A DNA stretch of 64,000 nucleotides from Chitinophagales bacterium (GTDB lineage Bacteria; Bacteroidota; Bacteroidia; Chitinophagales; CAIODY01). Where the stretch lies: assembly GCA_947449695.1 (NCBI GenBank), contig CANFST010000013.1:1-64000 (forward strand), given 5' to 3'. Under the pieces are notes generated by a model. It worked only from the letters and a program-made list of their open reading frames with translations, was not told where the DNA came from and did not search any database. This document shows positions 21,301 to 60,569 of the stretch, piece after piece. Position 1 is the first letter of the stretch. Each line of letters starts with the position of its first letter. The position numbers and the translations under genes were made by a program.

Positions 21301-24300
21301 CTTGAATATTTTGTACAACACTATTAATATGTTTGGTACAATTACAACTGGTACAGGAACTGGCTTTAATACTTGTATTGGTGCATACTCAGGAAATGTT
21401 AATACAGCTATTACAATAAAAGGAAACATCTTATCAAATACTACCAATTCTGCTACTACAAATAGTTGGTTAGCTTGTGATTATGGTTTCTATAATTTTG
21501 CAAGTAATATCCCTAATACTGGTGCTACCTACTTTGATTATAACGATATTTATAATGCATCATCTACAACTACTGGTCAATTAGGAACTGGTTATTATTT
21601 GTATAACTATAATTCGGGTTCAGGTCCTGTTGCTTATACTACTTTGTCTGCTGTTCAGCAATTAATGGGTGGTGATCAAAATTCATTCTCTGTATTGCCT
21701 CCATTTGTTTCTAATTCAGATTTACATTTAAATACAGGTACTACACCATCTCAGTTTGAATCAGGTGGGTATTTACCTGCTGCTGTAACTAAGGATATTG
21801 ACAATGACAATCGCCCAGGTCCAACTGGTTCGGTAAATGGCGGTGGTACAAAACCTGATATTGGTGCTGATGAATTTGATGGTGTGCCATTGATTCCATG
21901 TACTACAGTTACTGCTGGTACAACAACTGGTACTAACCCAATTTGTAAAAACAGTTCATTCTTATTAAACTTATCAGGTGCTACAAGCAATCAGGTTTAT
22001 TCAGGTTTAACTTACAGATGGAAACAATCAACTAATGGTGGTGCAACCTGGACTAATGCAACTGCTGCAGGTGTTTCAGGAACTGCTCCAACTATGATTT
22101 CAGCTGGTATTTCTACTCCAACAATTTACCATTGCGTATTAACTTGTACATTAAGTGGTGCAAAAGATTCATCAACTAACTTAAGCTTGGCTTTAGATAC
22201 TTTCTTGAATTGCTATTGTATTCCTGTATCTACTTATGGTAGCTATATTGCTCAATATGGTTATTATGGTGATATCACTAATGTTCAGTTTGGTAGTATC
22301 AATAACCCAACTCAAAGTTTTGGTCCGGCTGCTGCTCCGTTCTATACAGCTTATCCAAGTACAATCAATTCTGTTGTAGTAGGTGGTCAGTCTTATGGTT
22401 TAAGTGTAAAAGTTGATAATTATGGTTACTCACGTGCTGATGCATGGATTGACTATAACCGTAGCGGAACTTTTGATGCTGGTGAATGGACTTCTTTAGG
22501 TTCGAATTCTACTAGTTCTTACCCTACTTATCATACTGCAACTGTTGTTGTTCCTGCTGTTGTTTCTGATGGTTGGTCAAAAATGCGTATTCGTTCTGAT
22601 TATTATGGTTATACACCAGGTGCTACTGATGCTTGTACTTCAGGTAATCCTTATTACTATGGTGAAACACAAGATTATTATGTGTATTTGGTTGGTTTAC
22701 CAGCTAATCCTGGTAACCCTACTGAAGGTGCTACCCCAGTATCATGTACTGCAGGTACAACCTTAACACCTACAGGTACACCAAGCAATAGCAGAATTAA
22801 ATGGTATTGGGAATCTTCAGCTTCTGATACTACTCATACTTATGGTAACGTAGTAAACGGTGCAAAAACTATTTATAGTAATGGTACTTATTATGTACGT
22901 GCTTACGATACAATTTATAAAATCTGGTCAACAGGTGCTGGTTCTAAAGTAGTATCTGATTTCCCTGCTGGTCCTGCTTCGCCTGCTAATACTGTTATAA
23001 CTTCATCAGGTAATCCTGGTTGTTATACAGGTTCTACATTATCATCGGCTTTAGCTCCTTCAGCTGGTATCACTTATTTCTGGCAAACATTGCCTACTAA
23101 CACTGCTAATACTGATACTGCTGCTACTAATGTTTACAGCAAAAGCAAATTTGTTTCTGCTCCGGGTAACTATTATGTAAAAGCACAAGATTCAGTAGGT
23201 TGTTGGTCAACTGGTGCGGCAAGCATTACACAAGTATTGTTGCCTGCATTGGCTGCTTCTACATTCAGCACTTCTCAAATAACTGGTTGTGGTGGAAGTG
23301 GTACAGTTACAGTGGCTACACCTTCTTATGCGCCTTTATTACCTTGGTATAGCAATAATTTTAATGGTACATTTACTAATGGTCCGGCTGCTGCCTTGTT
23401 TGGTACAGCTTCAATATCGGGTGGATATTGTATCTTGAATCCAGCTGCTGCTTCACAAACTGGTGGTGGTATTCAAGTATTTAACCCAAGTGGTTTGAAT
23501 GCTAATGCCTTCACTATCGATTACGATTTCCAAACTATTTATGGTAATGGTAATGCAGATGGTTTCAGCTATAGCTTTGGTGATGACGTAGTTCAAATAC
23601 CTAATGCTGGTAGTACTTTCACTGGTAGCATTTCAGGTACAACATTAACAGTTACTGTAGCTCCTGCTACTCCGATTACTATTGGTCAGTTTATTACTGG
23701 TACTGGTGTTGGTAGCAATACTTATGTTACTGCTATGGGTACAGGTACAGGTGGTACTGGTACTTACATAGTGAATAACTCACAAACAGTTGCAAGCACA
23801 ACGTTAACTTCAACAGGTACTAACCCTGAAAATGGTAGTGGTACTAAATTGAAATTATCATTCGATGCTTATGCTAATGGTACTAACGTGCAAGGTATTT
23901 ACTTAATGTATAATTGTACTACACAAAACCAAACACCTACTTCACCTGGTGTAATAGGATTTGTGGCTAATACTTCATGGTTCTCAACTGCTACTACTAA
24001 TAGCCATGTTCAAATTGTTATCACTCCAACTGGTTATATCACAGTTAAATTAAATGGTACTGCAATATTTAACAATATTCAATTACCTGCTTCTTATTTA
24101 GCTGCTACCAAAACTAACTGGAGCCATGTATTCTGCGCAAGAACTGGTTCGGTTTACGAACAACATGCAATTGATAATTTTGTGGTACAATACAACAGCT
24201 TAAACTACTATCAATATAGTAGCAATGGCGGTGCAACTTGGCAAACTAACAACGTGTTTGGTTTACCTACTGGTACTTATCCTATATCAGTTACTTATGC

Positions 24301-27300
24301 GGCTAACCCATCATGTTCTGCAACTGCTGTTGGTAGCCCGGCTGTAATTAACAATTTCCATGTTACACCTGGTACAGTTACTACAAATATTCCTGTATTC
24401 TGCGTAGCTGGTATCCCAACATTTACTGTTACAGGTAACCAAGGTGGTATCCAATGGCAACAATCGTTAAATTCAAATGGTCCTTGGACTAACGTAGGTT
24501 CTGTTAATTCAGCTACTTATACACCATTGAGTAATTTAACAGCTAATACTTATGTTCGTGTATATAGTAATTGTCCTACTACAGGTATTCAACCAAATAT
24601 AGATTCATCATCTAATTATATGCAATCTGTATTAACGCCTACAGTTACTTCAGTTACTCCAGCTATACATTGCGGTTTTGGTACTGGTACTTTGTCGGCT
24701 ACTGTTAATGCAGGTTCTACTGCTAACTGGTATGCAACTTCTACAGCAACTACTGCCCAAACTGGTGGTTCAGCTACTTTAAGTTATACACCTCCAGCAA
24801 GCAGCACTACTACTAACTATTATGTAAGAGCTGCTGGTGCTACACCAGTTACTGCAAACTTGAGTTTGACTTCACCATTCTCTTATTATTCTACTTACCG
24901 ATATGGTTTAACATTTAATGCTAACCGTGCATTTACATTAACTACAGTTAAAGTATTTGCATATGCTGCTACAGCAGGTACAGCAGGTACAGTGTCAGTA
25001 GCCTTGGTAAATAGTACAGGTACGATTTTACAATCTGCTACTGTGAATGTGTTAGGTTATCCTCAAACAACTGCTAATTTAATTGGCTCGGTAGTAACCT
25101 TAAACTTCTATGTACCAGTTGGAACTAACTATGGTTTACAATGTACTGGTTATACTGGTATTAGCGGTTTATTGTACGAATATGGTCCGGGTGGTACTGG
25201 TGCTAACTTTGCATATCCATTTACAGATGTTACTAATTCTTGTAGTATCATTGGTGGTAACTTAGTAGCTGGTGCAGGTGTTCCAACTACAACATATCTT
25301 TACTATTATGCATCGTTCTACGATTGGAATATCAGCTGGCAGTGCGAATCTAACCCAGCTACTAAAGATTCGTTGAAAATTACTGCAGCTCCTGCTGTAA
25401 CTATTACAAATGGTAATCCTAACGCTTGTTTGGGTCAATCATCTACATTAGTGGCAAGCAGTGTGCTTAACCCAACTGGTTATACTTATTCATGGACAGC
25501 TGCTCCTTTAACAGGTAGTGGTTTCACTAACCCAACTGCAGGTGCTACAGTTACTGCTACACCAACAGTTTCGGCTACTTATCCTTCTACTGCACCTTAT
25601 GTTTATACAGTGGTAGCTACCGATAATACAACTGGGCCTTATGCTGGTTGTGCTTATCAGGCATCTACTACTATAAATACTAAACCTTTGCCGCCTATGG
25701 GTCCTACAACGGCTTCACCGGCTACATTGTGTGCAAGTACAACAGGTTATCCATCTTCTACTACGTTGGCTTCTAAAATCACAGCACCTGCGGCTGCTAC
25801 ACTTGGTACAGGTTCTACATTTACTGCAACCACCACCACTTATCCATCACCATATGGTTTGTACTATACGGGTGCTAAAGAGCAGTATCTGGTTTTAGCT
25901 TCTGAATTAACAGCTGGTGGATTTACCGCTGGTAGTAAAATAAGTTCATTAGCATTTAATGTTTATCAGGTGAATAGTCCAAATGGTACTTGTGGTACTA
26001 ATACAGGTTTTTATAGAAACTTTACTATTGCTATTGCAGGTACTACAGTGACAGCATTGACTGGCTATAATTTAACAGCTTCAAGCTTTACAACTTGTTA
26101 TACATTAGCTAATCCTTCTGCTGGTTTTCAACCAACAACTGGTTGGAATACTTATAATTTCCAAAATTCTTATACATGGAATGGTACAGACAATATTATT
26201 ATTGACGTGTCTTTCGTAAATAATGCTAATTGTCCTACTACTGCAACTTGTTATACTTTGTGTGATCAGATTTATTACCATACAACTACATTTAATTCAG
26301 TTGCGTCAGCGCATGCGGATGGTAGCTGTACGGTTAATACTTTCTCAACTACTCTTACACCAACTATCTATGCTACACGTCCTGATATGCAGATTAATGG
26401 TAGTTTCCAAACTACAACAGGTGTAAACTGGGCTTGGTCGCCAATTACGGCAACTACTGCAAGCACAACTGCTTCACCAGCACCTACACCAGGTGTAGCT
26501 TCAACTATCAAGAAGTATTATGTAACAGCTACAAATTCAACTACAGGTTGTATTGGTAAAGATTCTGTAACAGTTACAGTTAATCAACCACCATCAATTG
26601 CAGTTCAACCAGTATCTACTTCGGGTACAGCTTGTGCTTATACATCAACTAGCACATTTACTGTAACAGGTGTTGGTGCAGGTACATTGGGTTACCAATG
26701 GCAAGATAGTACTGCTACAGGTTGGGTAAATATTACCAATGGCACATTGGCTAATGGTACAGTTTATTCAGGTACAACTACATCTACATTATCAGTAAGT
26801 GGTTATCCATATTCAATGAACGGTCATAAATACCATGTGGTTGTAAGTGCATTAACAGGTGGTTGTAATCCATCAGTTGCATCTAATACGGTTAAATTGA
26901 ACTTCCGTCAACCTGCATCAGCAGTATTAAGCGGCAGCCAATCAATGATATTGGGTAATAATGCTACTTTAAGTGTTGCCTTAACTGGTACAGCACCATG
27001 GAGTATCACTGTATTAGATAGTACTACCAATGTATCTACAACTTATACTGGTATTGCTTCATCACCATATACATTCCAGGTATCTCCTTCTACAATTAAT
27101 ACTTACAAATTAGCATCATTAACAGATGGTAATGGTTGTACGACGAACTCAACTTCTGATATTTCAGGAAGAGCTATTGTAGATGTATATGCTATCAATG
27201 ACGATTGTTCTACTGCAATTCCGTTAAACTTAACAGTTGGTTGTAATTACACTAACGGAACATCGTTCAATGGTCATGCTTCAGGTCAGGCATCATGTAC

Positions 27301-29389
27301 TGGTAGTGCTTTAACAGCTAATCCTGATGATGATGTATGGTATGAAGTGTTTATCCCTGCTGGTTTACCATCAATTACTGTTCAAGTTATTAGCAATGGT
27401 AATTTTGATGCAGCATTTGAAATCTTAAAAGGTACATGTGCAGGTATGACATCATTAGCTTGTAGAAACCAAAGCAGTATAGCAGTTGGTGCAGGTTCAT
27501 TAGAAACTTATGTGTTGAACACCAATGCAATTGCTCCTGCTACTTTATACATTCGTGTATATGATGCAAGAACAGGTTGGGGTGCTTCAACAGGTGGTAA
27601 TGGCTTATTCCAAATTTGTACTTATGGTTTGATTGTACCATCTAATGGTACACCATGTAATGCAATTAGCTTGTCTAACAATTCAGGTTCAATTGCTAAT
27701 CATCCAAATCAAGTTACTTCTTTTGATAAAGCTCCGAATTTTGGCTTAATCAACGATGACCCTAATGGAACAGGAACAGGTTTCTGTTATACACCTACTT
27801 CAACACCAGCTTCTGGTGTGGCAGGTACTTACAAACCATTGGCAGCTAACTTGGTTTATTACCAAGGTACAACATCGTTCGGTTCATCATACACTGGCGA
27901 ACCAATGCCTCCAGGAATAACTAATACAGGTAATACTCAAAAAATTGTATGGTTCCAATTTAAAGCACCAACAGTATATGATGCAGCAGTTGATTTGAAT
28001 GTGAATTTTGCTTCAACAGCGTCATATAATGCTGGAACACAATTGTCAAATTGGGTAATTGCATTGTACACAATTTCAGGTTATCCTTGTAGCGGACCTA
28101 CATTTACTCCAGTGTATTATAATGGTACAACTTCACCAATTTATACTACAAATGGTAAAGTAAATATTTCGGGTGCTGACTTTGCTTATAATAATTTAGC
28201 TGGTCAAACAGTTTATGCTGAATTGTTCTTAACAACAGGTTCTCCGTCATACAATGCTGCAGGTGGCTCTTATTTGTTGGCAATTCATGCTTCAACACCA
28301 AATATCAATTTGCAATCACCTACAACAGCTACATTGTCAGCTAACTACACGAATACTTTGTTAGGTGTATCACAATACAAATTGTTCTGGCGTCATCGTC
28401 CAAATCCAGCAACTAACTGGTGTCAAACCGTAGAACAAGGCGGTGGTGGATATTCTTACACTTATCCAACTACTTCTCCTTATGTTATTACTGGATTAAC
28501 ATCAGGCGATACTTATGATTCTTGGATGCAGTATATCGGTGTAGGCGGTGATTATTTCGCAAGTAAAACAGTTAGCTTGGGTACAACTATTGGTTGTTCT
28601 GCTCAGCAACCTGCTCCATATATCAAACATGTTGTAGGTCATTGCTCAAGGGATACATTCAGAGTTGGTGGTATTTTGGGTGCTGCAGGTGTTACTGTGC
28701 CTCATCCAACACTTTATCCATACCGGATTTATTGGTTACCTACAGGTTCTAATGGATACTATGTTTACTCTTCTAGTAATATTAACAATTTAATTACCAA
28801 TTTGGCTGTTAATGGTCACTCTTATGACTTCTTCTATGGCGTTATTTGTACAGGTGGCGCAACAGTTAAATCAGCTGTAAAACGTGATACTACTTGTTAT
28901 GGTGCTCAAACACCAATAACCTTGGGTAATGGTAACGATGAACATATTACCTATGAAGTGGATGGTGTGTACTATGTAGATGTTGATATTCGTGAAGTAA
29001 TTTCTGCTTACGAAGCTGCACATCCTACAACTGATGATGGTCAAACACATTTCTATCCATTACATCGTGTGGATATGCCAAATGCAATTAGTTCAACTAG
29101 TACTGAGGCTTCTGCAGAAGATGTATTGACAGGTGGATTCAGCTTGATTCCAAATCCAACATCAAACAGAGTAAAAGTAGAATACAATTTACCAGATGAA
29201 AACTTAGCTGTTGCAACTATCAAATTGATGGATATGACAGGTAGAGTAATCAGAGAAATCAAATTAGACAATCCAGTTAAAGAGGGTTGGGTAAGTTTAG
29301 ATTTGAATGATTTGAACTCAGGTGTTTATTTAGTAAATGTTCAAACTGAAGGTTATACCGAAACTAAAAAATTGGTGGTGAATAAATAA
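15395..29389 (+). CDS. Giant multidomain T9SS-exported surface protein
   Basis: 4664 residues, signal peptide to about residue 32 (GARAQ). Approximate order: Ig-like (33-130), four near-identical Ig-like repeats (134-444), a further Ig-like domain (445-525), beta-helix region 1 (530-1480) with NIYNNTI rungs, a linking domain (1490-1610), beta-helix region 2 (1628-2162), Ig-like (2165-2270), GEVED (2272-2432, WIDYNRSGTFDAGEW), lectin-like jelly roll (2650-2940) with a 70-residue insert (2740-2809), more Ig-like modules, PPC-like (3932-4075, NDDCSTAIPL), FN3-like (4305-4388) and a type A sorting domain (4577-4664, IKLMDMTGRVIREI, LNSGVYLVNV). It is rich in Thr, Ser, Asn and Gly with GGT/ACT/GCT-dominated codons. 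Probably a surface adhesin or matrix protein; no catalytic motif is seen. It is followed at once by a strong terminator. Confidence 0.85.
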   Translation: MTNNYKNTLRKVILPFLMLALFAITGITGARAQCTGASASTVSASPAGPFCISGGTTLSTSATNASDVTYQWQSSATGVSASFANTSAADTLATFTTGTITTTTYYRLIVTCAAATVSDTSNVVALIIYPIPSVFANNNGPLCAGSNATLTATAGFSTYSWSGPGTINNGTTATATAVLPTNGSSYTVTITDANGCTNSASTTVTVNANPTVTASNNGPVCAGSNASLSATTGFTTYSWSGPGTINNGSTASATAVAPANNSTYTVTVTDANGCTATDNTTIATNALPSVSASNSGPICLGTNATLNATTGLTSYSWSGPGTINNGTTASATAVTPTNNSSYTVTVTDTNGCSNTASTTVTATQPTVSASNSGPVCAGNNATLNATTGLTSYSWSGPGAINNDTTASATAVAPTTGSSYTVTVTDANGCTNTASTTVTANALPTASAAASCASIMTGQSSTLTATATAGSGTISTYQWKKGATNVGTNSATYVATSAGSYTVTVTNSNGCSVTSSAVVITAVTGTPLSGTYNIPSTACNGFPTIAAAVNALDSLGISASVVFNIGAGIAYTETLTGPINLGSTVLNASTSATKTITFQKASTATANPVINSYVGTSQPTAISSFGDGMFNINGTDYVTINGVDLKDISALGTPAASNNYLTTMEWGYGLFKLNSSGALDGCQYDVIKNCTITLSMGTSVIRNRRNPWSIGITMDNRQYNGTMTGTIYALQGLTPSSAADCNSYNTFSGNTLYNVGNGIFMRGYYVTSTPGSTALYDVNNVVGGNTAITGNKILSFGGSGFGSTTALGITHLYQVNCTIKNNTIDNKNGGLNGGTAAKGYVMGIFSYNTATSAWLDYNYTIANNTITIDDSVTTTLTSSTTTYPSNAGIYAYYLTGSRNISNNAIKFNITNIATAAVTTSAFSGVLCYYGVTPPSNIPSYTFTFQNNTVNNCIMGSGVFAGFYIYGQGLCGTVDISGNQITGLTRNLGTTTTATSTTTYLFYNYYNPNYGTSGTTTNTYNNVLSNINFGSYAYGTVYGYYCGGAYNHNFYNNTISNVSVGATGSASTIYCNYLYYGTNNNYYGNIVSNITSGGTIYGMYNYAYNGGTIGLGTDNIYNNSITGLSGATGGTTTSTIYGMLNYTYYGATANIYNNTINNLSAISTSAGTVYGMYDYNYYNTTDNIYSNTITNLTSNYSAGTIYGMYEYQISATKNIYKNNISGITNTATAAGSAINYGLYIYGYNANANGAAVFNIYNNIFRLSAPPHSNNIYGAVGLTLNNYSASSSYNYAANLSYNDFYMDGSSDQAAFGSAAVYQNSTSVPLTANATLKNNLFINACTNTNATPTNKCVGIRNASSTMGYGWLNNASTNNIWYAGPTSPYSGLLWDGTTMNASLSAMKGVLAPSEAGSYTENPPFLSTVVGNSNFMKIDPTIGTQIESGAVQVSGITNDYAGTTRYGNTGYAGTSTVAPDCGVYEGNYVALDLSAPNIVYTALSSACGTGDRTFTANLVDVTGVDNSTYLPTAYYKKRYNGTWQTATGSLTAGTVKNGTWSFTLSSVAMGGLSIGDSVLYFVVAQDVATPTANVGSNTGGVVATNTAVITTYPTYASAAKYPVVPAMNGNYYVGAGMVAAHPTNGFNTLTAAAAAYNSYCITGPVTFLLTDSTYKTTTETFPVVFNVNSTNVAGYSVTVRPDAGNNVRFIGTSTTTAFIELNGTSKFVIDGSNTVGGTTQNMTFWNTNNAANTGVWLASTGGAGTGCTYDTVRNCKFQGGAVQGSSTNIFGVTGSSNAGQTSGGSDNDNDAIINCSFKSMFNAINWLGAATATASDNLYVGYNTVGLGSAYPTGTQTTASAPAGVCTNYGMYFSYCNNMNIEKNDIGGVYSYSSPYYPSGVAIGSGITGGYISKNKIHGIAMPSTGGWGAYGIYIPSGTSPANLTISSNFIYDVLTENYTNYPTIYNAYGIFLYGNTTNLNILYNTINMFGTITTGTGTGFNTCIGAYSGNVNTAITIKGNILSNTTNSATTNSWLACDYGFYNFASNIPNTGATYFDYNDIYNASSTTTGQLGTGYYLYNYNSGSGPVAYTTLSAVQQLMGGDQNSFSVLPPFVSNSDLHLNTGTTPSQFESGGYLPAAVTKDIDNDNRPGPTGSVNGGGTKPDIGADEFDGVPLIPCTTVTAGTTTGTNPICKNSSFLLNLSGATSNQVYSGLTYRWKQSTNGGATWTNATAAGVSGTAPTMISAGISTPTIYHCVLTCTLSGAKDSSTNLSLALDTFLNCYCIPVSTYGSYIAQYGYYGDITNVQFGSINNPTQSFGPAAAPFYTAYPSTINSVVVGGQSYGLSVKVDNYGYSRADAWIDYNRSGTFDAGEWTSLGSNSTSSYPTYHTATVVVPAVVSDGWSKMRIRSDYYGYTPGATDACTSGNPYYYGETQDYYVYLVGLPANPGNPTEGATPVSCTAGTTLTPTGTPSNSRIKWYWESSASDTTHTYGNVVNGAKTIYSNGTYYVRAYDTIYKIWSTGAGSKVVSDFPAGPASPANTVITSSGNPGCYTGSTLSSALAPSAGITYFWQTLPTNTANTDTAATNVYSKSKFVSAPGNYYVKAQDSVGCWSTGAASITQVLLPALAASTFSTSQITGCGGSGTVTVATPSYAPLLPWYSNNFNGTFTNGPAAALFGTASISGGYCILNPAAASQTGGGIQVFNPSGLNANAFTIDYDFQTIYGNGNADGFSYSFGDDVVQIPNAGSTFTGSISGTTLTVTVAPATPITIGQFITGTGVGSNTYVTAMGTGTGGTGTYIVNNSQTVASTTLTSTGTNPENGSGTKLKLSFDAYANGTNVQGIYLMYNCTTQNQTPTSPGVIGFVANTSWFSTATTNSHVQIVITPTGYITVKLNGTAIFNNIQLPASYLAATKTNWSHVFCARTGSVYEQHAIDNFVVQYNSLNYYQYSSNGGATWQTNNVFGLPTGTYPISVTYAANPSCSATAVGSPAVINNFHVTPGTVTTNIPVFCVAGIPTFTVTGNQGGIQWQQSLNSNGPWTNVGSVNSATYTPLSNLTANTYVRVYSNCPTTGIQPNIDSSSNYMQSVLTPTVTSVTPAIHCGFGTGTLSATVNAGSTANWYATSTATTAQTGGSATLSYTPPASSTTTNYYVRAAGATPVTANLSLTSPFSYYSTYRYGLTFNANRAFTLTTVKVFAYAATAGTAGTVSVALVNSTGTILQSATVNVLGYPQTTANLIGSVVTLNFYVPVGTNYGLQCTGYTGISGLLYEYGPGGTGANFAYPFTDVTNSCSIIGGNLVAGAGVPTTTYLYYYASFYDWNISWQCESNPATKDSLKITAAPAVTITNGNPNACLGQSSTLVASSVLNPTGYTYSWTAAPLTGSGFTNPTAGATVTATPTVSATYPSTAPYVYTVVATDNTTGPYAGCAYQASTTINTKPLPPMGPTTASPATLCASTTGYPSSTTLASKITAPAAATLGTGSTFTATTTTYPSPYGLYYTGAKEQYLVLASELTAGGFTAGSKISSLAFNVYQVNSPNGTCGTNTGFYRNFTIAIAGTTVTALTGYNLTASSFTTCYTLANPSAGFQPTTGWNTYNFQNSYTWNGTDNIIIDVSFVNNANCPTTATCYTLCDQIYYHTTTFNSVASAHADGSCTVNTFSTTLTPTIYATRPDMQINGSFQTTTGVNWAWSPITATTASTTASPAPTPGVASTIKKYYVTATNSTTGCIGKDSVTVTVNQPPSIAVQPVSTSGTACAYTSTSTFTVTGVGAGTLGYQWQDSTATGWVNITNGTLANGTVYSGTTTSTLSVSGYPYSMNGHKYHVVVSALTGGCNPSVASNTVKLNFRQPASAVLSGSQSMILGNNATLSVALTGTAPWSITVLDSTTNVSTTYTGIASSPYTFQVSPSTINTYKLASLTDGNGCTTNSTSDISGRAIVDVYAINDDCSTAIPLNLTVGCNYTNGTSFNGHASGQASCTGSALTANPDDDVWYEVFIPAGLPSITVQVISNGNFDAAFEILKGTCAGMTSLACRNQSSIAVGAGSLETYVLNTNAIAPATLYIRVYDARTGWGASTGGNGLFQICTYGLIVPSNGTPCNAISLSNNSGSIANHPNQVTSFDKAPNFGLINDDPNGTGTGFCYTPTSTPASGVAGTYKPLAANLVYYQGTTSFGSSYTGEPMPPGITNTGNTQKIVWFQFKAPTVYDAAVDLNVNFASTASYNAGTQLSNWVIALYTISGYPCSGPTFTPVYYNGTTSPIYTTNGKVNISGADFAYNNLAGQTVYAELFLTTGSPSYNAAGGSYLLAIHASTPNINLQSPTTATLSANYTNTLLGVSQYKLFWRHRPNPATNWCQTVEQGGGGYSYTYPTTSPYVITGLTSGDTYDSWMQYIGVGGDYFASKTVSLGTTIGCSAQQPAPYIKHVVGHCSRDTFRVGGILGAAGVTVPHPTLYPYRIYWLPTGSNGYYVYSSSNINNLITNLAVNGHSYDFFYGVICTGGATVKSAVKRDTTCYGAQTPITLGNGNDEHITYEVDGVYYVDVDIREVISAYEAAHPTTDDGQTHFYPLHRVDMPNAISSTSTEASAEDVLTGGFSLIPNPTSNRVKVEYNLPDENLAVATIKLMDMTGRVIREIKLDNPVKEGWVSLDLNDLNSGVYLVNVQTEGYTETKKLVVNK
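15794..16726 (+). repeat. Four tandem Ig-like repeats coded by near-identical DNA
   Basis: Units start at 15794, 16028, 16262 and 16493, with lengths 234, 234, 231 and 234 bases (78, 78, 77, 78 residues). Each carries the cores TYSWSGPGTINN (or SYSWSGPG) and YTVTVTDANGC. Units 3 and 4 differ by only a few bases over the central 90 or so, implying recent duplication or gene conversion. Confidence 0.85.
18660..19060 (+). repeat. Beta-helix rung repeats (IYGMYNY / NIYNNTI)
   Basis: The phrase TIYGMYNY or a close variant recurs with starts near 18668, 18789, 18892 and 18981, each followed by NIYNNTI-type asparagine-ladder sequence. Spacings of about 120, 103 and 89 bases show rungs of unequal length, typical of right-handed beta-helix proteins. 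Confidence 0.6.
23612..23821 (+). other. 70-residue inserted module inside the lectin-like domain
   Basis: Codes residues 2740-2809, with GSISGTTLTVTV, GQFITGTGVGSNTYVTAMG and GTGTGGTGTYIVNNSQTVAS. It separates GFSYSFGDDVVQIPNAG from NPENGSGTKLKLSFDAYANG, two pieces that are normally close together in L-type lectin-like domains. Modules with the ISGTTLTVT / GTGTGGTGTYTV pattern are familiar from phage fibre and environmental proteins (from memory). No frameshift is caused. Confidence 0.6.
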
Positions 29390-33094: not shown

Positions 33095-34816
33095 TTGAAA
33101 AAAAATCACCACAATATTTTCAAGAAAATTGAATTTGCAATTTGCAATTTAATATTTGCAATTTTGATTACTGGTTGTGCCAACGTAGTTGCTCCAACAG
33201 GCGGAACAAAAGATTCATCGCCTCCTAAACTCATTTTTTCAACTCCGAAAAAAGGTGCTACAAATTTTCACGAGAATTCTTTCCGTGTAAATTTTGATGA
33301 GTTTATTAAATTAAAGGACAAAGAAGTTTTAGTATCGCCGCCATTGAAAACTGCTCCCAAAGTAAAATTGGGGGGCAAATCAATTTCGGTAAACTGGAAA
33401 GACACTTTAAAAGAAAACACCACTTACACATTTGTGTTTGGCGATAATATTCAAGATATAACAGAAGGCAATACGCTTAACAATTTTCAATTTGTGTTTA
33501 GCACGGGCGATGTAATTGACACTTTAACTTATTCAGGAAAAGTGTTAGAGGCTTCAACAGGAAACGCCTTAGAGAATGTATCCGTTATGTTGTACAAAGA
33601 AAGCTTCGATTCGATTCCATCAAAACAAAAACCATATTATCTGGCGAAAACAAATAAAGAAGGTGCTTTTCAGTTTAATTATTTGAAAGAGGGAAGGTAT
33701 AAAATTTTTGCATTGAAAGATGAGAACTATGATTTGCTCTACAATTTGCCAAATGAAAAAATTGGCTACTCCGATACTTTAATTTCAGTAGGAAAATTTT
33801 TCAAACCTGTTACTTTACAATTGTTTGAAAATTTTCAAAACAAAAAACAACAAATAAAATCGGTAAAACGATCAGATGCTATAAGTTATTTAATTCAGTT
33901 TGATAAAAATATTCAATCGCTGAAATGCACAACTGACAATAATTACAACGATTTTATTTCATTTGTAAAAAATGATTCGTTGCAGATTTATTTCAGAAAA
34001 AAAATAACGACCGATTCGTTGCCTTTGTATATTGTTACTGAAAATTTAGATACGGTTCTGAAAATTGAAACCATCACCGATTCAACAAACTGGAAACGAA
34101 CACGATTAAATGCAAAGGCTAATTTTCAACTAACTGCTTCGTCAAAGACTGATGAAACAAGGGGAAAACAAAATTCGATGTTTAGTTCTGTTTCCAATTC
34201 TGCAACAAAAAGTAGTTCAAAATTCAGCGATGAACTGAATTTTAACCAGCCCATGTTTTTGAATTTTAATCACCCAATTGAAAAAGAAAATTTTAAAACT
34301 GCGTTTCAATTAATTGAAGATACCGGTAAATATAAAACTGCAATCAAGCCGCAACTATTGAATGATAGTGCATTTCAGCAAAAAATAAAAATCAATTACA
34401 ATTTTAAAGAAGACCATTTGTATGAATTGATTGGAAGAAAAAATCAACTCACAGATGTTGCAAATATTTTGAGCGATTCGTTTCACATTTCTTTCATTTA
34501 CAAAGCTCAACGGCATTTTGGAAATATTTTATTGGATATAAAAGTTGATTCGTTGCCTCACCATTGGTTAGTGCAACTATTAAATAACAGTGGCGTTGAA
34601 GTGGCTCGTGAAAAATTTGCAAACAAAAAAATCAGTTGGAATAATTTACCACAAGGGCAATACAATATCCGGATTTTGAATGATGAAAACGGAAATGGAA
34701 AGTGGGATACCGGAAATTATTTTTTACATCAACAACCCGAGTCGTATCTTCGTTATACAAATGATGTATTAGTAAAACCCAACTGGGATACCGAACTAGA
34801 GTGGAAAATTAAATAA
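33095..34816 (+). CDS. Large lipoprotein with N-terminal bacterial Ig-like domain
   Basis: About 573 residues with TTG 33095 as best start, 8 bases after the previous stop; no ATG precedes the signal. LKKNHHNIFKKIEFAICNL leads into a lipobox ending LITGC. The mature part opens with VVAPTGGTKDSSPPKL and an Ig-like (Big_5-type) domain, NFDEFIKLKDKEVLVSPPL, then TYTFVFGDNIQDITEGN. A carnitine/CarboxypepD-like sandwich follows (YSGKVLEASTGNALENVSVM). The end resembles NGNGKWDTGNY, a calcium-binding-like loop seen in extracellular proteins. The family is common in Bacteroidota; function unknown. Its signal-peptide DNA holds an octamer repeat (33131-33166). Confidence 0.75.
   Translation: MKKNHHNIFKKIEFAICNLIFAILITGCANVVAPTGGTKDSSPPKLIFSTPKKGATNFHENSFRVNFDEFIKLKDKEVLVSPPLKTAPKVKLGGKSISVNWKDTLKENTTYTFVFGDNIQDITEGNTLNNFQFVFSTGDVIDTLTYSGKVLEASTGNALENVSVMLYKESFDSIPSKQKPYYLAKTNKEGAFQFNYLKEGRYKIFALKDENYDLLYNLPNEKIGYSDTLISVGKFFKPVTLQLFENFQNKKQQIKSVKRSDAISYLIQFDKNIQSLKCTTDNNYNDFISFVKNDSLQIYFRKKITTDSLPLYIVTENLDTVLKIETITDSTNWKRTRLNAKANFQLTASSKTDETRGKQNSMFSSVSNSATKSSSKFSDELNFNQPMFLNFNHPIEKENFKTAFQLIEDTGKYKTAIKPQLLNDSAFQQKIKINYNFKEDHLYELIGRKNQLTDVANILSDSFHISFIYKAQRHFGNILLDIKVDSLPHHWLVQLLNNSGVEVAREKFANKKISWNNLPQGQYNIRILNDENGNGKWDTGNYFLHQQPESYLRYTNDVLVKPNWDTELEWKIK
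33131..33166 (+). repeat. AATTTGCA octamer repeat in a signal-peptide coding stretch
   Basis: Tandem and near-tandem copies of AATTTGCA code the hydrophobic core EFAICNLIFAIL. A similar array codes the TolC-family signal peptide at 59820-59851. Confidence 0.6.
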
Positions 34817-53483: not shown

Positions 53484-56400
53484 CTATTCATCACCTTTTT
53501 CAATTTTTGCTCTCAATCTTCTGTGTTCTTGTTTCAATTTTAATTTGTAACGAATCACATACATCGAAGGTGAAACAACCAAGGTTAAGAAGGTTGCAAT
53601 CACTAATCCGTAAATGATTGTCCAAGCCAATGGCCCCCAGAACACAACGCTATCGCCACCCAACCAAATGTTTGGTTTGAAGTGAGTGAATAAGCCCGGG
53701 AAATCAATGTTTACACCAATTGCCAAAGGAATCAATCCTAAAATAGCAGCGCAAGCAGTTAATAAAACTGGTGTCATACGAGTTACACCACCTTCGATTA
53801 CACTCTCCAAAGTACGATGACCACGAGCTTTCAGCTCATCAATAAATTCAATTAAGATGATACCATTCTTCACCACAATACCTGCCAGTGCCATGATACC
53901 AACACCTGTCATTACGATTACCATTGGGTCGCCGCTTGCTGCATAACCCATGAATACGCCGATGAAACTGAATGCAATAGTGGTGAAAATGATTAATGGT
54001 TTTGATGTTGAATTGAATTGAATTACGATTACCAAGAACATCAATGCGATGGCTGCCATAAAGGCTTTGCCCAAAAATGCTCCAGTTTCTGCTTGGTCTT
54101 CTTGCTCACCAGTTTGTTTGATTTCATATCCTTCAGGCAATTTTGTCGTCTTGAATAATTCTTTCAAATCAGCATTTATTTCATTCGCATTAAATCCTTC
54201 TAACACATTACTGCCAAGGGTTACCACACGTTTTTGATTTTTACGATTAATGCCGCTGAAGTTGTTTGAAAACTCAACTGTTGCAACACTACTCAAAGGA
54301 ATTTGACGGAATTGTCCGTTTGTCATATCACGGAAAGCAATGATGATGTTCAATAAATCTTCTGGTTTGTCACGATATTTTTTATCCAATTTTACCATGA
54401 TTGGAATTTCATCATCCGCATCACGATACTTAGCGTAATCACGATTTCCATTCAATACCTGATACAATGCACCAGCAATTTGCCCAACACTCAAACCCTC
54501 ACGTTGTGCTTTATTTACATCTACTTTCACTTTCAATTCGGGTTTGTTCAACACCAAATCACTTTTCAATTCTTCAATTCCTTTGATGCCGCTATTGTTC
54601 ACCAAGTTTTTTACACGAGCGGAAATAGCAACCAACGAATCAAAATCATCACCCGAAACTTCGATGTTTACAGGCTTTCCAGTCGGTGGTCCGCCATGTT
54701 CTTTATCTACAATTACTTTTACACCTGGCAAACCTTTTACATTATTTCTAATCGCAGTTAAAATTTGAGCAGTTGGTGCACCATGTCTGTCTTCTGCTGA
54801 TTTGAATGCAATGGTGATTTTTGATTTGTGTGATTGCGGCGTTCTGTCTGGGTTTTGAGGGTCACCAGCACCGATTGCCACATTTGAAATTACACTTTCA
54901 ACCAACGGATTTTTTTCTCCAATCACATCGTAAACTTTTTTCTCTAAAATTTTTGTAACTGAATCAGTAGCTGCAACGTCAGTCCCGATAGGCATTTCAG
55001 CATATACATACACAAAGTTAGGGTCGCCATCAGGGAAGAATAAAACTTTTGGTTTACGCATTCCTAATAAAACAATACTCAACACTAAAAAGAAAATTGT
55101 ACCTGTTAAAACTTTTCCTGGATGGTGTACTGCCCATGTAACCAAGCGGCGATAAGCATTTCGTAAACGTGGTAAAAACTTTTCTTGGAAACTATGAATC
55201 ATTGGATTCAAAACATAATGCATCAATAGCAATAACAAGATGATGAAGAACATGAAATTTGCTAAGCCCAACATCGTGTAATTTTTATTCGCAAAAAATC
55301 CTAACAAGAATAAAACACCCACAATACCCAAGAAAATAAAGGCTTTGCGGTATTTGCCCACACTTTCTTGCTTGTATTCATGGTCACGTTTCATAAACGA
55401 AACTGCAAAAACCGGATTGATAACAAACGCTACTAATAACGATGCAAACAAGGTTATAATCAAGGTCATTGGTAAGAAATACATGAATCTACCAACGATG
55501 CCTGGCCAAAATAATAATGGGAAAAATGGTGCAACGTTTACCAATGTGCCTGTGAGCACCGGCCAGAAAACCTCACCAGCAGCTTCTTTCACGGCTTCCA
55601 TGATGGTCATGTCTTTGTGCTTGTTGAAAATTCGATGTGAATTTTCTATCACCACAATTGCATCATCCACCACAATTCCTAATGCTAATAAGAATGCAAA
55701 CAATACAATAACATTCAACGAAAATCCTAAACCCGGTAAAAATAAAAATGCTAACACCGAACTCAATGGCACTGAAAGCCCCACGTAGAAGGCATTTTCA
55801 ACACCCATGAAAAACATCAATACTAATGTTACAAACAAAAATCCAAGAATAACAGTGTTAATCAAGTCATTCAATTGCGCTTGCGTTTGCACACTCAAGT
55901 CAGCAGTGTAAGTAACCGTAAGGTCTTTAGGGAATTTATTTTTTTGAAAATCAGCAACTGATGCTTTGATTTTTTCAGCAGCGTTAATCAAATTTTCGCC
56001 GCTGCGTTTTATCACATTCAAAGTGATAACTGGCTTGTGGTCTAATCGAGCATAGCTTTCTCTGTCTTTATATCCATCTTCCACATCAGCAATATCACCC
56101 AAGCGAACCACATTGCCTTGTCCACCTTTGAAAGTCATGTTACGAATATCTTCCACAGTCTTAAACTCACCACTAATACGAAGTGTACGGCGTAATTCTT
56201 TTACATTAATATCACCACCACTCACACTCATGTTGTTGTATTTCAACTGATTTTCAATATCAGTCAAACTCACGTAAGCCGCTTGGCTCTTATATAAATC
56301 AACATTCACTTTCACTTCTCTATCCAATGCACCAATGATATCGCAACGAGTAATTTCTTTGTTCGTTTCAATTTTATCTTTTAAATCATCAGCAAATTTT

Positions 56401-56873
56401 TTCAGTTTGGTGGCATCATAATTCCCACTCAAATTAATATTCATACACGGAAACTCACTGAAATCAACCTCTTGCACCACTTGATTTTTTTGAGCATCAG
56501 CAGGAATATCTACTTTCGCTTTATCAACGGCATCTTTAATTCTTTGCTTCGCTTCTGCCACTTCAATACCAGTATTGAATTCAACCGTAATCAACGAAAT
56601 ACTTTCTTGTGATGATGAAGTAACTTTTTTTACACCACTCACCGATTTTATTTTTTTCTCCAACTGCTTCGTTACTGTATTTTCAATATCAGTTGGCGAA
56701 GCACCCGGATAAATTGTGCTCACAAACACAGTAGGAATAACGATATCAGGGAATCGCTCTTTCGGCAAACCGATATACGTCATCACACCTGCAATGCTCA
56801 ACAGAATCGTCATTACATAAACTGCCGTTCTGTTTTTAATACTCCAATTGGTTATAGGAAAACCACCTTTCAT
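53484..56873 (-). CDS. RND efflux pump, inner-membrane permease (AcrB/HAE-type)
   Basis: 1129 residues from ATG 56873. An open frame extends 26 codons upstream, but it overlaps the previous gene and reads MRLLPFQAKQ without the conserved start, whereas MKGGFPITNWSIKNRTAVYV is the family N-terminus. Twelve membrane helices and two large periplasmic loops fit the length. The TM4-type motif GIVVDDAIVVIENSHRIFN carries the paired Asp residues of the proton relay. Also seen are YPGASPTDIENTV and the late NGIILIEFIDELKARG. It would pump toxic compounds or other amphiphiles together with the MFP and TolC proteins of the same operon. Confidence 0.93.
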   Translation of the reverse strand: MKGGFPITNWSIKNRTAVYVMTILLSIAGVMTYIGLPKERFPDIVIPTVFVSTIYPGASPTDIENTVTKQLEKKIKSVSGVKKVTSSSQESISLITVEFNTGIEVAEAKQRIKDAVDKAKVDIPADAQKNQVVQEVDFSEFPCMNINLSGNYDATKLKKFADDLKDKIETNKEITRCDIIGALDREVKVNVDLYKSQAAYVSLTDIENQLKYNNMSVSGGDINVKELRRTLRISGEFKTVEDIRNMTFKGGQGNVVRLGDIADVEDGYKDRESYARLDHKPVITLNVIKRSGENLINAAEKIKASVADFQKNKFPKDLTVTYTADLSVQTQAQLNDLINTVILGFLFVTLVLMFFMGVENAFYVGLSVPLSSVLAFLFLPGLGFSLNVIVLFAFLLALGIVVDDAIVVIENSHRIFNKHKDMTIMEAVKEAAGEVFWPVLTGTLVNVAPFFPLLFWPGIVGRFMYFLPMTLIITLFASLLVAFVINPVFAVSFMKRDHEYKQESVGKYRKAFIFLGIVGVLFLLGFFANKNYTMLGLANFMFFIILLLLLMHYVLNPMIHSFQEKFLPRLRNAYRRLVTWAVHHPGKVLTGTIFFLVLSIVLLGMRKPKVLFFPDGDPNFVYVYAEMPIGTDVAATDSVTKILEKKVYDVIGEKNPLVESVISNVAIGAGDPQNPDRTPQSHKSKITIAFKSAEDRHGAPTAQILTAIRNNVKGLPGVKVIVDKEHGGPPTGKPVNIEVSGDDFDSLVAISARVKNLVNNSGIKGIEELKSDLVLNKPELKVKVDVNKAQREGLSVGQIAGALYQVLNGNRDYAKYRDADDEIPIMVKLDKKYRDKPEDLLNIIIAFRDMTNGQFRQIPLSSVATVEFSNNFSGINRKNQKRVVTLGSNVLEGFNANEINADLKELFKTTKLPEGYEIKQTGEQEDQAETGAFLGKAFMAAIALMFLVIVIQFNSTSKPLIIFTTIAFSFIGVFMGYAASGDPMVIVMTGVGIMALAGIVVKNGIILIEFIDELKARGHRTLESVIEGGVTRMTPVLLTACAAILGLIPLAIGVNIDFPGLFTHFKPNIWLGGDSVVFWGPLAWTIIYGLVIATFLTLVVSPSMYVIRYKLKLKQEHRRLRAKIEKGDE

Positions 56874-56901
56874 AATTGAAAAATTTATTGATTTAATGAA
56901 C

Positions 56902-57261
56902 TTAAGATTTAGTCGAACGAGCTGTTTTGCCTGAAACGGCAATAATCGCAAGCAGTTCGGCTGTTTCTTTTTTTATTTCTGTTAATCTGTCTTGTTTTAT
57001 TAATTCTAATGATTCTATCAACTCAATCCAAAATAAAGTTTCGTCCAATTCTTCTTCTACAATTCTTAATTTATTGATGAAATCTGCTTTCGATTTTGAA
57101 CGTGTTAACGCTCTATAATTAGCTGCAACCGATGTGGAAGAACGCATCACTTGTCTCCCAATTATTTTTCCGATTTCACTTTTCTTGATGATGGTTTCTG
57201 AAAGTTTGATTACTCTGATACAGAACACTTTTGTTCTGTCCTTCATTTCTTGTTGCGTCAT
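56902..57261 (-). CDS. Four-helix bundle protein of the 23S rRNA intervening-sequence type
   Basis: 119 residues. MTQQEMKDRTKVFCIRVIKL, QVMRSSTSVAANYRALTRSK and KADFINKLRIVEEELDETLFWIEL (read in two pieces) are the conserved helices of the S23/IVP four-helix bundle family (TIGR02436-like). These proteins were first found in intervening sequences of 23S rRNA genes and are widespread alone; they form homopentamers in known structures, with unknown function. Here the gene sits between the MFP and RND genes of an efflux operon, 71 bases from the former's end and 28 from the latter's start, all on one strand. It is probably an insertion or an acquired accessory. Confidence 0.88.
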   Translation of the reverse strand: MTQQEMKDRTKVFCIRVIKLSETIIKKSEIGKIIGRQVMRSSTSVAANYRALTRSKSKADFINKLRIVEEELDETLFWIELIESLELIKQDRLTEIKKETAELLAIIAVSGKTARSTKS

Positions 57262-57332
57262 GATGATGTATTGATTAAAAGATGCTTAGATTTCTTCGAA
57301 ATCTTATAATCTTGAAATTTAAAAATCTTCAA

Positions 57333-58448
57333 TTACAATTTAACCTCTTGCCCATCAATCAAATCTTGATAGCCCGATGTAATCATTTCATCACCTTCTT
57401 TCAATCCATCAGTGATGATAATATTGCCATTGTATGAATCACCTGTTTTTACAATAGCACGTTTTGCAATAATTTTATTTCCGCTGTGTTCAGCCACCAT
57501 AACGAATTTTCCGTCTTCGCTCGTTTGAATTAAATTTTGATTAATCACCACAGCCTTATTAATTGTAGCGTCATTAATTTTTAAATTCGTAACCATATTT
57601 GGTTTCAATTGCGAACAACCAGCCATCAAAACTTCTACATTAAATGTTCGAGTAATTGGGTCAACAACGCTACCAGCGTAGGTTAGAGAAGATGAAATTG
57701 GATTTGCATTGTCGTCAGGCAATTCAATCATCACTTTATTTCCACGATGAACTTTGTTGATGAATGCATCAGCCAATTTTGCTTTTACTTTCATTTTGCA
57801 GGTATTCACCACTCTGATTCCACTAAAACCCATCGCAGCCATTTCACCTACTTTCACTTTCACCTCATCAACCACACCATCGAAAGGTGCAACAATTTTG
57901 GTGTTCGAGATTTGTGATTGCAACGAAGCAATATTTTTTTCCAAACTTTCCTTTTGAGTTTTTGCTTGTAAGAATTGAAACTCTGTTCCAATTTTTTGAT
58001 TCCACAAATTTTGTTGACGCTCAAAAGCAGTTGTAGCCAAACTCAAATTTGCCTGCAAACCACTCAATTGATTTTGCAATGGCGAAGCATCAGCATCTGC
58101 CAACACCTGACCAGCCTTCACATTGTCGCCTGCTTTCACGTAAATATTGCTTACTGCAAAACCAGGTTGTTTTGGTCCAACCAACACGTTATCATCACTT
58201 TCAACAGTGCCTTGCACTTCGATGAAATGATTAAATGCAGAAGTTTCAACTTTAGTTAAAGAAACCAATTTCGATTGCGATGAATCAGTTTTTCCATCAC
58301 CCAATTGCGCTTCTAAAGTTTTAATTTTTTCGCCCAGCGATTTGTATTCTGTTTTCAGTTTTTCCAATTCAGCTTTTTTGTCGTTGCCTTGCTTAGCACC
58401 GCAAGCAGCCAACATTACAGCCATTCCGAGGATAATTATTCTTTTCAT
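57333..58448 (-). CDS. Membrane fusion (periplasmic adaptor) lipoprotein of the RND pump
   Basis: 371 residues. Lipoprotein signal MKRIIILGMAVMLAACG with lipobox LAAC at about 16. An alpha-helical coiled-coil (about 25-50, KKAELEKLKTEYKSLGEKIK) precedes the usual lipoyl/beta-barrel HlyD-type fold: VQGTVESDDNVLVGPKQPGF, AGDNVKAGQVLADADASPLQ, VAPFDGVVDEVKVKVGEMA and the closing TSGYQDLIDGQEVKL. It joins the RND permease to the TolC channel. Four-gene efflux layout and same-strand position support this. Confidence 0.9.
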   Translation of the reverse strand: MKRIIILGMAVMLAACGAKQGNDKKAELEKLKTEYKSLGEKIKTLEAQLGDGKTDSSQSKLVSLTKVETSAFNHFIEVQGTVESDDNVLVGPKQPGFAVSNIYVKAGDNVKAGQVLADADASPLQNQLSGLQANLSLATTAFERQQNLWNQKIGTEFQFLQAKTQKESLEKNIASLQSQISNTKIVAPFDGVVDEVKVKVGEMAAMGFSGIRVVNTCKMKVKAKLADAFINKVHRGNKVMIELPDDNANPISSSLTYAGSVVDPITRTFNVEVLMAGCSQLKPNMVTNLKINDATINKAVVINQNLIQTSEDGKFVMVAEHSGNKIIAKRAIVKTGDSYNGNIIITDGLKEGDEMITSGYQDLIDGQEVKL

Positions 58449-58554: not shown

Positions 58555-59898
58555 TCATTTAATTAAATTTCCTGTTGCTTTTTCAAAATTTACTTTAGCT
58601 ATGTAAGCATCATACAAAGCGCTGAAATAGTTGGTCTGAGCTTCTTTCAAAGATGTTTCTGCATTCAACACTTCTAAATTTGAACCCACACCTTGCTGAT
58701 ATTTTATTTTCGTTACACGAACAACTTCATCAGCTAAATCCATTGTTTTTTTATTTGACTCAATAGTAAGCAATGCATTTTTCATTGTAACTTTTGCATT
58801 ACTCAAATCCAATTGCAATGCATTTTTTAGGTTAGCAATGTCATTTTCATTTTTCACAATTTCCAATCTAGTATATGCTTTTCTGCTTTTGTTTTGCATT
58901 CCATCCCAAAAAGTTACATTCATTTGCAAACCCCACAAACCGCTATTATAGTAGTTTGCATTTGAATTGAACATGTCAAATTTTTCTCCGTAGTGATTAG
59001 TATTGTATTGAGCAAATGCTGCCAAATTTGGTAAACAACCCAATTGATAACGTTTTAAATTCAACTTGTTTAATTCCATCTGTTTGTTGAGCAATTGAAT
59101 TTCAACACGATTGTTATATCCATTTGGCGCATCCAAATTGGAAAGAGATTTAATATCGGAGATTGCCAAAGTATCAGTTAAATCAATAGTTTGATTCACA
59201 TCATAACCCATTTGAAATTTCAACAACGATTTACCCAACTCAGCCAATTCATTGATTTTTGTTTGCTCAGTTTTCAAATTAGTCAATGCAATTTCCAAAC
59301 GTTGCACATCAATATTTTCAACGAAACCTTGCTTGTTGTATTCTTTAGTTTCGTTAAAAGTTTTTTGCAATCTGTCAATATTCGCATCTAATAACGACAA
59401 TCTTTTTTTGGTAACCAACACATTGTAATAGGCCTTTGAAACTTGTTCTGCAATATCAATTTTGCTACGTTGTGTACTATAACTCAATAATTTTGAAACT
59501 TCCATTTGTGCTTTCAATCCTAAAAAATAAGAGGCATCAGCCAACAACCAACTACCTGAAAGCCCAGCCTGTGTTGCAAATACAGAACCTACTTGAATAA
59601 CCTGTGGTCCATTTGCTGTAGGAAATACGAATGTTTGCTTGGCAAAATTATCTACAATTTGCGCCGAACCTTTTATTTGTGGCAAACCAATTCCTCTAAA
59701 CTCTTTGATTTTGTATTGAGTGATTTGCTCATCCAATTTTGCATTTTTAATGGTTGAAGAATTCTTCATCGCATAATCAACTGCTTGCTGTAAGCTAAAT
59801 GTGGATTGGGCTTGAGCCGAAATTGCAAATTGTAAATTGCAAATTGTAATTAGGAAAACTATTAGTGGTTTTAAAAATTTTGAGTTCATCAATTTCAT
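58555..59898 (-). CDS. TolC-family outer-membrane efflux channel
   Basis: 447 residues. Signal peptide with hydrophobic core IVFLITICNLQFAIS ending in AQAQ. The repeated coiled-coil helices of OEP proteins follow: FSLQQAVDYAMKNSSTIKNA near residue 35, VSKAYYNVLVTKKRLSLLDA about 145-165 and VTKIKYQQGVGSNLEVLNAE, with EAQTNYFSALYDAYIAKVNF at the end. It trimerises into the outer-membrane exit duct of the RND pump. The ATG at 59898 is followed by another at 59889, either of which is possible. Its signal-peptide DNA is a tandem octamer array (59820-59851). Confidence 0.92.
   Translation of the reverse strand: MKLMNSKFLKPLIVFLITICNLQFAISAQAQSTFSLQQAVDYAMKNSSTIKNAKLDEQITQYKIKEFRGIGLPQIKGSAQIVDNFAKQTFVFPTANGPQVIQVGSVFATQAGLSGSWLLADASYFLGLKAQMEVSKLLSYSTQRSKIDIAEQVSKAYYNVLVTKKRLSLLDANIDRLQKTFNETKEYNKQGFVENIDVQRLEIALTNLKTEQTKINELAELGKSLLKFQMGYDVNQTIDLTDTLAISDIKSLSNLDAPNGYNNRVEIQLLNKQMELNKLNLKRYQLGCLPNLAAFAQYNTNHYGEKFDMFNSNANYYNSGLWGLQMNVTFWDGMQNKSRKAYTRLEIVKNENDIANLKNALQLDLSNAKVTMKNALLTIESNKKTMDLADEVVRVTKIKYQQGVGSNLEVLNAETSLKEAQTNYFSALYDAYIAKVNFEKATGNLIK
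59820..59851 (-). repeat. AATTTGCA/AATTTACA octamer array in the TolC signal-peptide region
   Basis: Minus-strand sequence repeats (AATTTGCA)(AATTTACA)(AATTTGCA) in phase with ICNLQFAI. A related array lies at 33131-33166 in another signal peptide. Confidence 0.6.
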
Positions 59899-59951: not shown

Positions 59952-60569
59952 CTAATTCTCCTCTATCTTTTTATACTTGTTAATCAATTTATGTCCTTTC
60001 AAAGTGCATACCCCATGCAAAAACTGGTCGAGTAAATTCACTTGTATGTATTCAATGTTGAATTTTTTAATCGGGAAAAAGTCATTGCTACAGCCCATTT
60101 CCACTTCATGCATTCTTTTGTAAGCCGTTAATTCCAAATCAATATCATCACGATACAAACCTTCTTTAATACCCCATTTCAAATTATCAGTGAGAATCTT
60201 AACAAAAAAAGTCTGCTGATGTTCTTGAAAAATTTTCATCGCTTCAGGATAATATTTTTTCATGTCGTTAAATGCCGCAGGATTCATACCTCTTATGAAT
60301 TCACACATCCGTTCGCTGGTAGTCATGATTTCATGCACTGCATCTTTCGCCTCTTTTTTCACATCCATCATTGTTTTTTGAATGATGCTGATGTGAATTT
60401 TAATTGCCTCTTTCACAATTTCATCTTTATCAGAAAAATGCTGATACAAAGTTTTTTTACTCATCCCCAACTCACGGGCAATATCGTCCATCGTGATAGA
60501 ACGTATGCCCAGCTTGTGAAAGAGCTGATACGATGAGTACAAAATTTTATGTTTGGTGTCGTCTATCAT
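59952..60569 (-). CDS. TetR/AcrR-family regulator of the efflux operon
   Basis: 205 residues. The DNA-binding domain is at the N-terminus (about 8-55): HKILYSSYQLFHKLGIRSIT, MDDIARELGMSKKTLYQHFS and DKDEIVKEAI form the classical TetR helix-turn-helix. The C-terminal ligand-binding domain is diverged, as usual. It heads the minus-strand operon tetR, tolC, MFP, IVP, RND, with tolC starting 53 bases after its stop. An inverted repeat lying between the -33 and -7 elements of its promoter (60593-60620) makes self-repression, relieved by a drug-like ligand, the simplest reading. Confidence 0.93.
   Translation of the reverse strand: MIDDTKHKILYSSYQLFHKLGIRSITMDDIARELGMSKKTLYQHFSDKDEIVKEAIKIHISIIQKTMMDVKKEAKDAVHEIMTTSERMCEFIRGMNPAAFNDMKKYYPEAMKIFQEHQQTFFVKILTDNLKWGIKEGLYRDDIDLELTAYKRMHEVEMGCSNDFFPIKKFNIEYIQVNLLDQFLHGVCTLKGHKLINKYKKIEEN

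Follow-up and report, generated by a model that had tools for sequence, protein, structure and literature searches.

The window, a stretch of 64,000 nucleotides from a Chitinophagales bacterium, carries two unrelated genes whose N-terminal signals each contain a short tandem repeat. The first gene (33095..34816, plus strand) encodes a lipoprotein of 573 residues with a Big_5 Ig-like domain (Pfam PF13205, E=4.8e-19) and a DUF2141 domain (PF09912, E=7e-11), and of 60 genomes in an order sample, 58 have a homologue. Its signal peptide (33095..33175, plus strand) begins at a putative TTG start codon at 33095, and the hydrophobic core FAICNLIFAIL precedes the lipobox LITG and the cysteine codon at 33176-33178. 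This core is encoded by an imperfect array of five heptamers (33132..33166, plus strand; AATTTGC AATTTGC AATTTAA TATTTGC AATTTTG), which is translated in frame as EFAICNLIFAIL; the in-frame reading from the array of the 573-residue protein gives KIEFAICNLIFAILITGC. Tandem Repeats Finder assigns to positions 33132-33164 a period of 7 with 4.7 copies, about 2.7 of the units being perfect and the remainder imperfect.

The second gene (58555..59898, minus strand) encodes a TolC-family outer-membrane efflux protein of 447 residues (Pfam PF02321, E=4.4e-41). It forms an efflux cluster with the Pfam-assigned genes of an AcrB-type transporter (53484-56951) and a HlyD/CusB-type adaptor (57333-58448), which together span 53484..58448 on the same minus strand; a TetR-family regulator gene (59952..60569, minus strand; PF00440, E=9.2e-13) adjoins the cluster. 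The signal peptide (59809..59898, minus strand) reads MKLMNSKFLKPLIVFLITICNLQFAISAQA and is followed by glutamine at the predicted cleavage site, with the core ITICNLQFAIS preceding AQA/Q. Judged from the translation, a signal that ends before glutamine fits the Q-rule for signal peptidase I in Bacteroidetes, as given in the available text of PMC5837995. The array in this gene (59820..59849, minus strand) alternates AATTTGC and AATTTAC, codes in frame for ITICNLQFAI, and is read within the TolC-family protein as FLITICNLQFAISAQAQ. Elsewhere in the window, an open reading frame of 4664 residues (15395-29389) contains a 234-base tandem repeat at 15805-16716.

The first-pass annotation had described both arrays as octamers. 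The existence of the arrays, their in-frame position in the hydrophobic cores of two N-terminal signals and the unrelatedness of the genes are all borne out, but the unit is the heptamer AATTTGC. Tandem Repeats Finder gives period 7 at both loci (7/14 for 59820-59849), and an octamer-spaced pattern has no match in the window, which rules out the octamer reading. Compared with other segments of its own gene, the lipoprotein array has a period-7 score of 12 (P=0.0019), and the TolC array a score of 14 against the rest of its gene (P=0.0027); the period-6 and period-8 scores of both are low.

A unit of seven bases has a simple consequence for coding. Since 7 equals 1 modulo 3, a heptamer array free of stop codons gives one and the same cyclic heptapeptide in all three frames, so that strand and stop codons matter and frame does not. 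AATTTGC is stop-free on both strands, whereas each of ten other units tested has a stop on at least one. One strand encodes the hydrophobic NLQFAIC (mean hydropathy 1.2), and the other the polar ANCKLQI (0.24). The earlier claim that one unit codes two unrelated signal-peptide cores turned out to be an underestimate: a third exported protein, TPR-like, has an AATTTGC-type core (G000:C15:17321-17353, MSRIKKFFLVIIICSLQFAVCNFSFAQ). Of six coding arrays of this type inspected in the genome, the three read from the hydrophobic strand all lie in signal peptides (lipoprotein, TolC and TPR-like), and the three read from the polar strand all lie elsewhere, in an AroC loop and two C-terminal domains. 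For this tiny sample of six arrays, the association of orientation with signal-peptide position gives a Fisher P of 0.05.

Within the 64 kb window no period-7 run passes the strict threshold (13), so the significance of the arrays rests on the genome and not on the window. The genome-wide count proposed by the first-pass annotation was made on 3.14 Mb in 99 contigs and revealed a non-random class. The 19-base pattern AATTTGCAATTTGCAATTT, with at most two mismatches, matches 16 positions at 10 loci, and its reversed control matches none; AATTNNNAATTNNNAATT has 50 matches genome-wide vs. 5 in the reversed control. In a sample of 1,018,451 bases, 13 strict period-7 runs were found vs. 0.33 expected from order-3 Markov controls. 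Against the same controls there is an excess at period 14 (9 vs. 0.33) and period 21 (12 vs. 0.67), and period 15 is raised as well (7 vs. 0.33). Period 18 yields 4 vs. 1, and periods 4-6 and 8-13, like periods 16, 17, 19, 20, 22 and 23, only 0-3 arrays each. A looser threshold gives 26 period-7 arrays in this sample vs. 2 expected. The congener G001 has 4 period-7 arrays in 238 kb vs. 0 in controls. The unit differs among arrays (AATTTGC, AATTATG, AAATTTC and others), and a mixed family of AATTATG, AATTAGG and AATTAAG is found at many unlinked loci. The coding DNA of the genus is peppered with heptamer arrays.

The arrays of this class are concentrated near gene starts, as had been suspected: 11 of the 26 lie between -75 and +90 of a gene start as called by a crude custom caller, an interval that makes up 12% of the sample (P=1e-4). 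The enrichment lies on both sides of the starts and persists when two-letter arrays are left out (9 of 24, P=0.0012); period-8 and period-9 arrays show a weak excess of the same kind (3 of 4 and 3 of 7, respectively). Many arrays nevertheless lie deep within genes or at C-termini. In-frame arrays occur inside the conserved genes AroC, MnmE, IspG and KdtA, identified by PDB matches, and in a Ddl-like fusion, a LuxC-like reductase, an MFS permease and C-terminal domains, named from sequence. Alignment of AroC, MnmE, IspG and KdtA to PDB chains shows no clean extra segment at the array, so plain insertion is not shown for these four. An amidohydrolase has about 6 residues more in the genus than in the sister genus, and the sister-genus signal peptides of the lipoprotein and TolC genes have no array, yet are not clearly shorter by the array length. 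Two observations stand on their own. A gene of 894 residues (L105:6464-9145, G000:C1) looks by its sequence like two fused D-alanine-D-alanine ligase units; heptamer arrays lie inside the first of the two and close to where they join. The longest heptamer array of the sample, about 8 perfect units of ATCGTCC (L118:3155-3212, G000:C15), either immediately precedes a gene whose product is apparently exported or lies at its N-terminus, and it is the best candidate for real slippage.

The two arrays of the window had been regarded as a possible mutable on/off or export-strength element. The comparison of species does not support this idea, and an on/off switch is rejected as the leading explanation. 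The lipoprotein of the window shares 88% identity with its counterpart in G001 and 74% with that in G002, and its array has the same unit number and spacing in these three species (G000, G001 and G002), all differences being substitutions; the comparison is one between species. The two congeners are uncultured and, to judge by isolate names and homologues, probably freshwater Bacteroidota. The array segment is conserved about as well as its flanks in one of the three pairs and better in the other two (0.75, 0.83 and 0.92 vs. 0.78, 0.57 and 0.68, respectively). The third signal peptide likewise has an array of equal length in G000 and G001.

At other sites it is the unit itself that differs between congeners. 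In the TolC signal, AATTTGC in G000 is replaced at the same place by an AATTGCT-type array in G001 (period 7, P=0.0026), both arrays having a significant period 7; in the TolC genes of three sister-genus genomes no array was detected (period-7 P of 0.09-0.43). In a loop of MnmE, AAATTTC in G000 corresponds to CAATATT-type units in G001 and G002, with 1 of 13 residues shared in the array vs. 71-74% in the flanking segments. IspG site 2 has GAATTAC in G000 and G002 and an AATTTGC-like array in G001. These three coding sites are the clear replacements. Suggestive but weaker cases are IspG site 1, where the period-8 score is the stronger one in G002, KdtA (period-7 P=0.17), DLST site 2 and the third signal peptide in G002 (P=0.19). 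The lipoprotein, LuxC-like and MFS arrays are counter-examples in which the unit was inherited unchanged, and the array is absent at Ddl site 1 in G001 and at both DLST sites in G000.

For 15 sites in 12 genes, chosen for an array in one genome and with inherited arrays counted, period 7 reaches P<=0.05 in 18 of 24 congener orthologues vs. 3 of 28 sister-genus orthologues. Conservation is lower in the array segments than in their flanks, with a median of 0.46 vs. 0.71 over 33 non-independent pairs. In the TolC gene of G001 (L127:9661-9759), a single signal peptide contains two different heptamer arrays: one of AATTATG/AATTAAG units that starts with the initiator ATG and lies in the n-region, the other of AATTGCT units and situated in the core. 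In addition, a hairpin-like in-frame element adjoins the heptamer sites in IspG (L241) and KdtA (L216) of G001. It has the sequence CTCTCC...GGAGAGGG followed by TGGGGTGAGG, or a close variant, and codes for SPLERVGVR-like peptides; going by these two sites, it is apparently a second kind of gene-inserted repeat.

In the search beyond the genus, the array pattern has a match in 28 of 298 genomes of the order sample (at most two mismatches) and in 4 of 395 genomes of the phylum sample (at most one mismatch). Among the order and phylum loci inspected, namely those returned and 20 further places, a part of all matches, none has an AATTTGC array as a signal core. Strict period-7 arrays in 200 kb each of G005, G143, G049 and G007 number 0, 1, 0 and 1, too few to establish a difference.

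Taken together, these data probably mean that both arrays belong to a population of short, imperfect heptamer arrays which is spread over the genome and marks the genus, and that they were co-opted as signal-peptide cores. The arrays look like raw sequence material used by evolution and not like an on/off switch. A heptamer array that arose in coding DNA, by insertion or by expansion, would be tolerated only where the encoded peptide is harmless or useful. Arrays in the hydrophobic orientation near the 5' end of genes for exported proteins would be kept as the core of a signal peptide, and AATTTGC arrays in the opposite orientation would end up in loops and C-terminal domains. Once established, the unit number would be fixed and the array would decay by point mutation, and occasionally an array with a different heptamer would overwrite it. 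A bolder version is tentative and on balance doubtful: the arrays may be frame-indifferent coding cassettes, repeatedly written and overwritten at fixed permissive codon positions, with units swapped wholesale between sister species while length and frame are kept. Such cassettes would supply signal-peptide cores, enzyme loops and linkers.

The simplest alternative is that chance and codon bias make a signal core look repetitive, because such a core draws on the A+T-rich codons of Phe, Ile, Leu, Asn, Ala and Cys. Hydrophobic cores are indeed compositionally narrow, and the scan also picked up two-letter T-runs in two N-termini. This explanation is nevertheless very unlikely in view of the 16 real matches against none in the reversed control, of an excess that falls on period 7 and its multiples and not on 6, 8 or 9, and of order-3 Markov controls that yield almost no such arrays. 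The two signals of the window, moreover, stand out from the rest of their own genes at P=0.002-0.003, with low period-6 and period-8 scores. A role of the 5'-proximal arrays in translation or at the mRNA level, for instance as a site for an RNA-binding protein, with the coding of a signal as a mere by-product, would agree with the 11 of 26 arrays near gene starts, and was proposed for the heptamer TAACTGA, most repeats of which lie just upstream of starts in Beggiatoaceae according to the available text of PMC4679880. However, the unit sequence varies from array to array and is exchanged between orthologues, so that there is no common binding site, and the many arrays deep within genes or at C-termini are equally out of keeping with such a role, which we consider improbable.

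Two further explanations concern the way in which arrays change. Known slippage switches have a perfect stretch far longer than that of the present arrays, which comprise just 2-3 perfect units interrupted by substitutions that would suppress slippage. A gain or loss of a unit could in principle shift the mature protein out of frame, like the CTCTT repeats in the opa leaders of Neisseria, a precedent described in the available part of PMC3960869. The arrays do sit between the start codon and the mature protein, and, as the unit is not a multiple of three, a change by one unit would lead to loss of the product: a stop is reached in the +1 and +2 frames after 6 and 19 codons, respectively, in the lipoprotein and after 17 and 7 codons in TolC. 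The possibility is nonetheless a highly improbable one, given that the lipoprotein array has an equal unit number in three species and that of the third gene in two, and that neither a lipoprotein conserved throughout most of the order sample nor an efflux porin is a typical phase-variable antigen.

More weight, but still less than an even balance, falls to preformed mobile cassettes that, through template switching or conversion between arrays, are copied from one site to another and come to lie more than once at the same permissive places; we regard this as rather unlikely. It would account for the congeners that differ in heptamer at the same codons of TolC, MnmE and IspG site 2, each with a significant period 7 and with flanks that are 49-74% identical, and for the recurrence of the mixed AATTATG/AATTAGG/AATTAAG family at unlinked loci. 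On the other hand, the clear replacements number only three, neither a donor array nor a mechanism has come to light, and independent births at permissive sites give the same pattern. The earlier suggestion that the AATTTGC unit itself was spread by copying is unproven, the three signal peptides having no evident likeness, by eye, outside the array. As for heptamer arrays in general, their dispersal is plausible.

The co-option of heptamer arrays as signal-peptide cores would show a simple route to a new functional peptide. When the unit of a repeat is no multiple of three, all frames of the repeat give the same peptide. Such a repeat can enter a gene at no cost to the frame within the repeat itself, and it would be retained if its peptide suits the place, as in the core of a signal peptide. 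If unit replacement holds on more genomes, it would point to a copying process in coding DNA that is as yet unknown. The arrays also warn that loops of well-known enzymes can be derived from repeats. A literature search, whose coverage leaves out most subscription papers, found neither heptamer arrays that serve as signal-peptide cores nor a replacement of units at coding sites.

A long perfect array is a defining trait of opa-type phase-variable leader repeats, and the present arrays have about 2.7 perfect units in the lipoprotein gene and alternating units in TolC. Both kinds are tandem, lie in the coding sequence of a leader peptide and have a unit not divisible by three (PMC3960869, available part). 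According to the same text, the number of opa repeats is variable and phase switching occurs at about 1e-3 per generation; the present arrays, by contrast, are short and decayed and keep a constant number of units from species to species. The P6b stem of the Nostoc trnL intron, in which one of two repeat classes (I and II) repeatedly replaces the other, is alike in the replacement of classes at the same site and in steps of seven bases, as far as the available text of PMC4476775 goes; it is, however, a structured RNA stem-loop, whereas the present arrays are protein-coding DNA.

The TAACTGA direct repeats, which occur in Beggiatoaceae, cyanobacteria and some Bacteroidetes (PMC4679880, available text), are likewise heptamers close to start codons. 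Some of them lie in open reading frames in the stop-free orientation, code for a cyclic heptapeptide and are suspected of mobility, like the present arrays. They differ in having one fixed unit, TAACTGA, which is not among the units seen here (AATTTGC, AATTATG, AAATTTC and others), and in being mostly intergenic, with the copies in reading frames mostly in regions that are small or peripheral; the text available describes for them no signal-peptide role and no unit replacement.

An excess of heptamers in bacteria was noted in 2007, with GGGAATC in Xanthomonas and similar repeats in Nostoc (PMC4692102, available part). With these heptameric simple sequence repeats the present arrays share units of seven bases in tandem, imperfect copies, scatter over the genome, over-representation relative to other long unit sizes and a position that is often near gene ends. 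In the part of PMC4692102 available, the described repeats are G-rich, mainly non-coding and able to form G-quadruplexes, whereas those of the present genus are A+T-rich, have many different units and are often coding, also within signal peptides. Heptameric repeats as a class are therefore already known, and the arrays reported here are best filed as a variant of them with a use in signal peptides.
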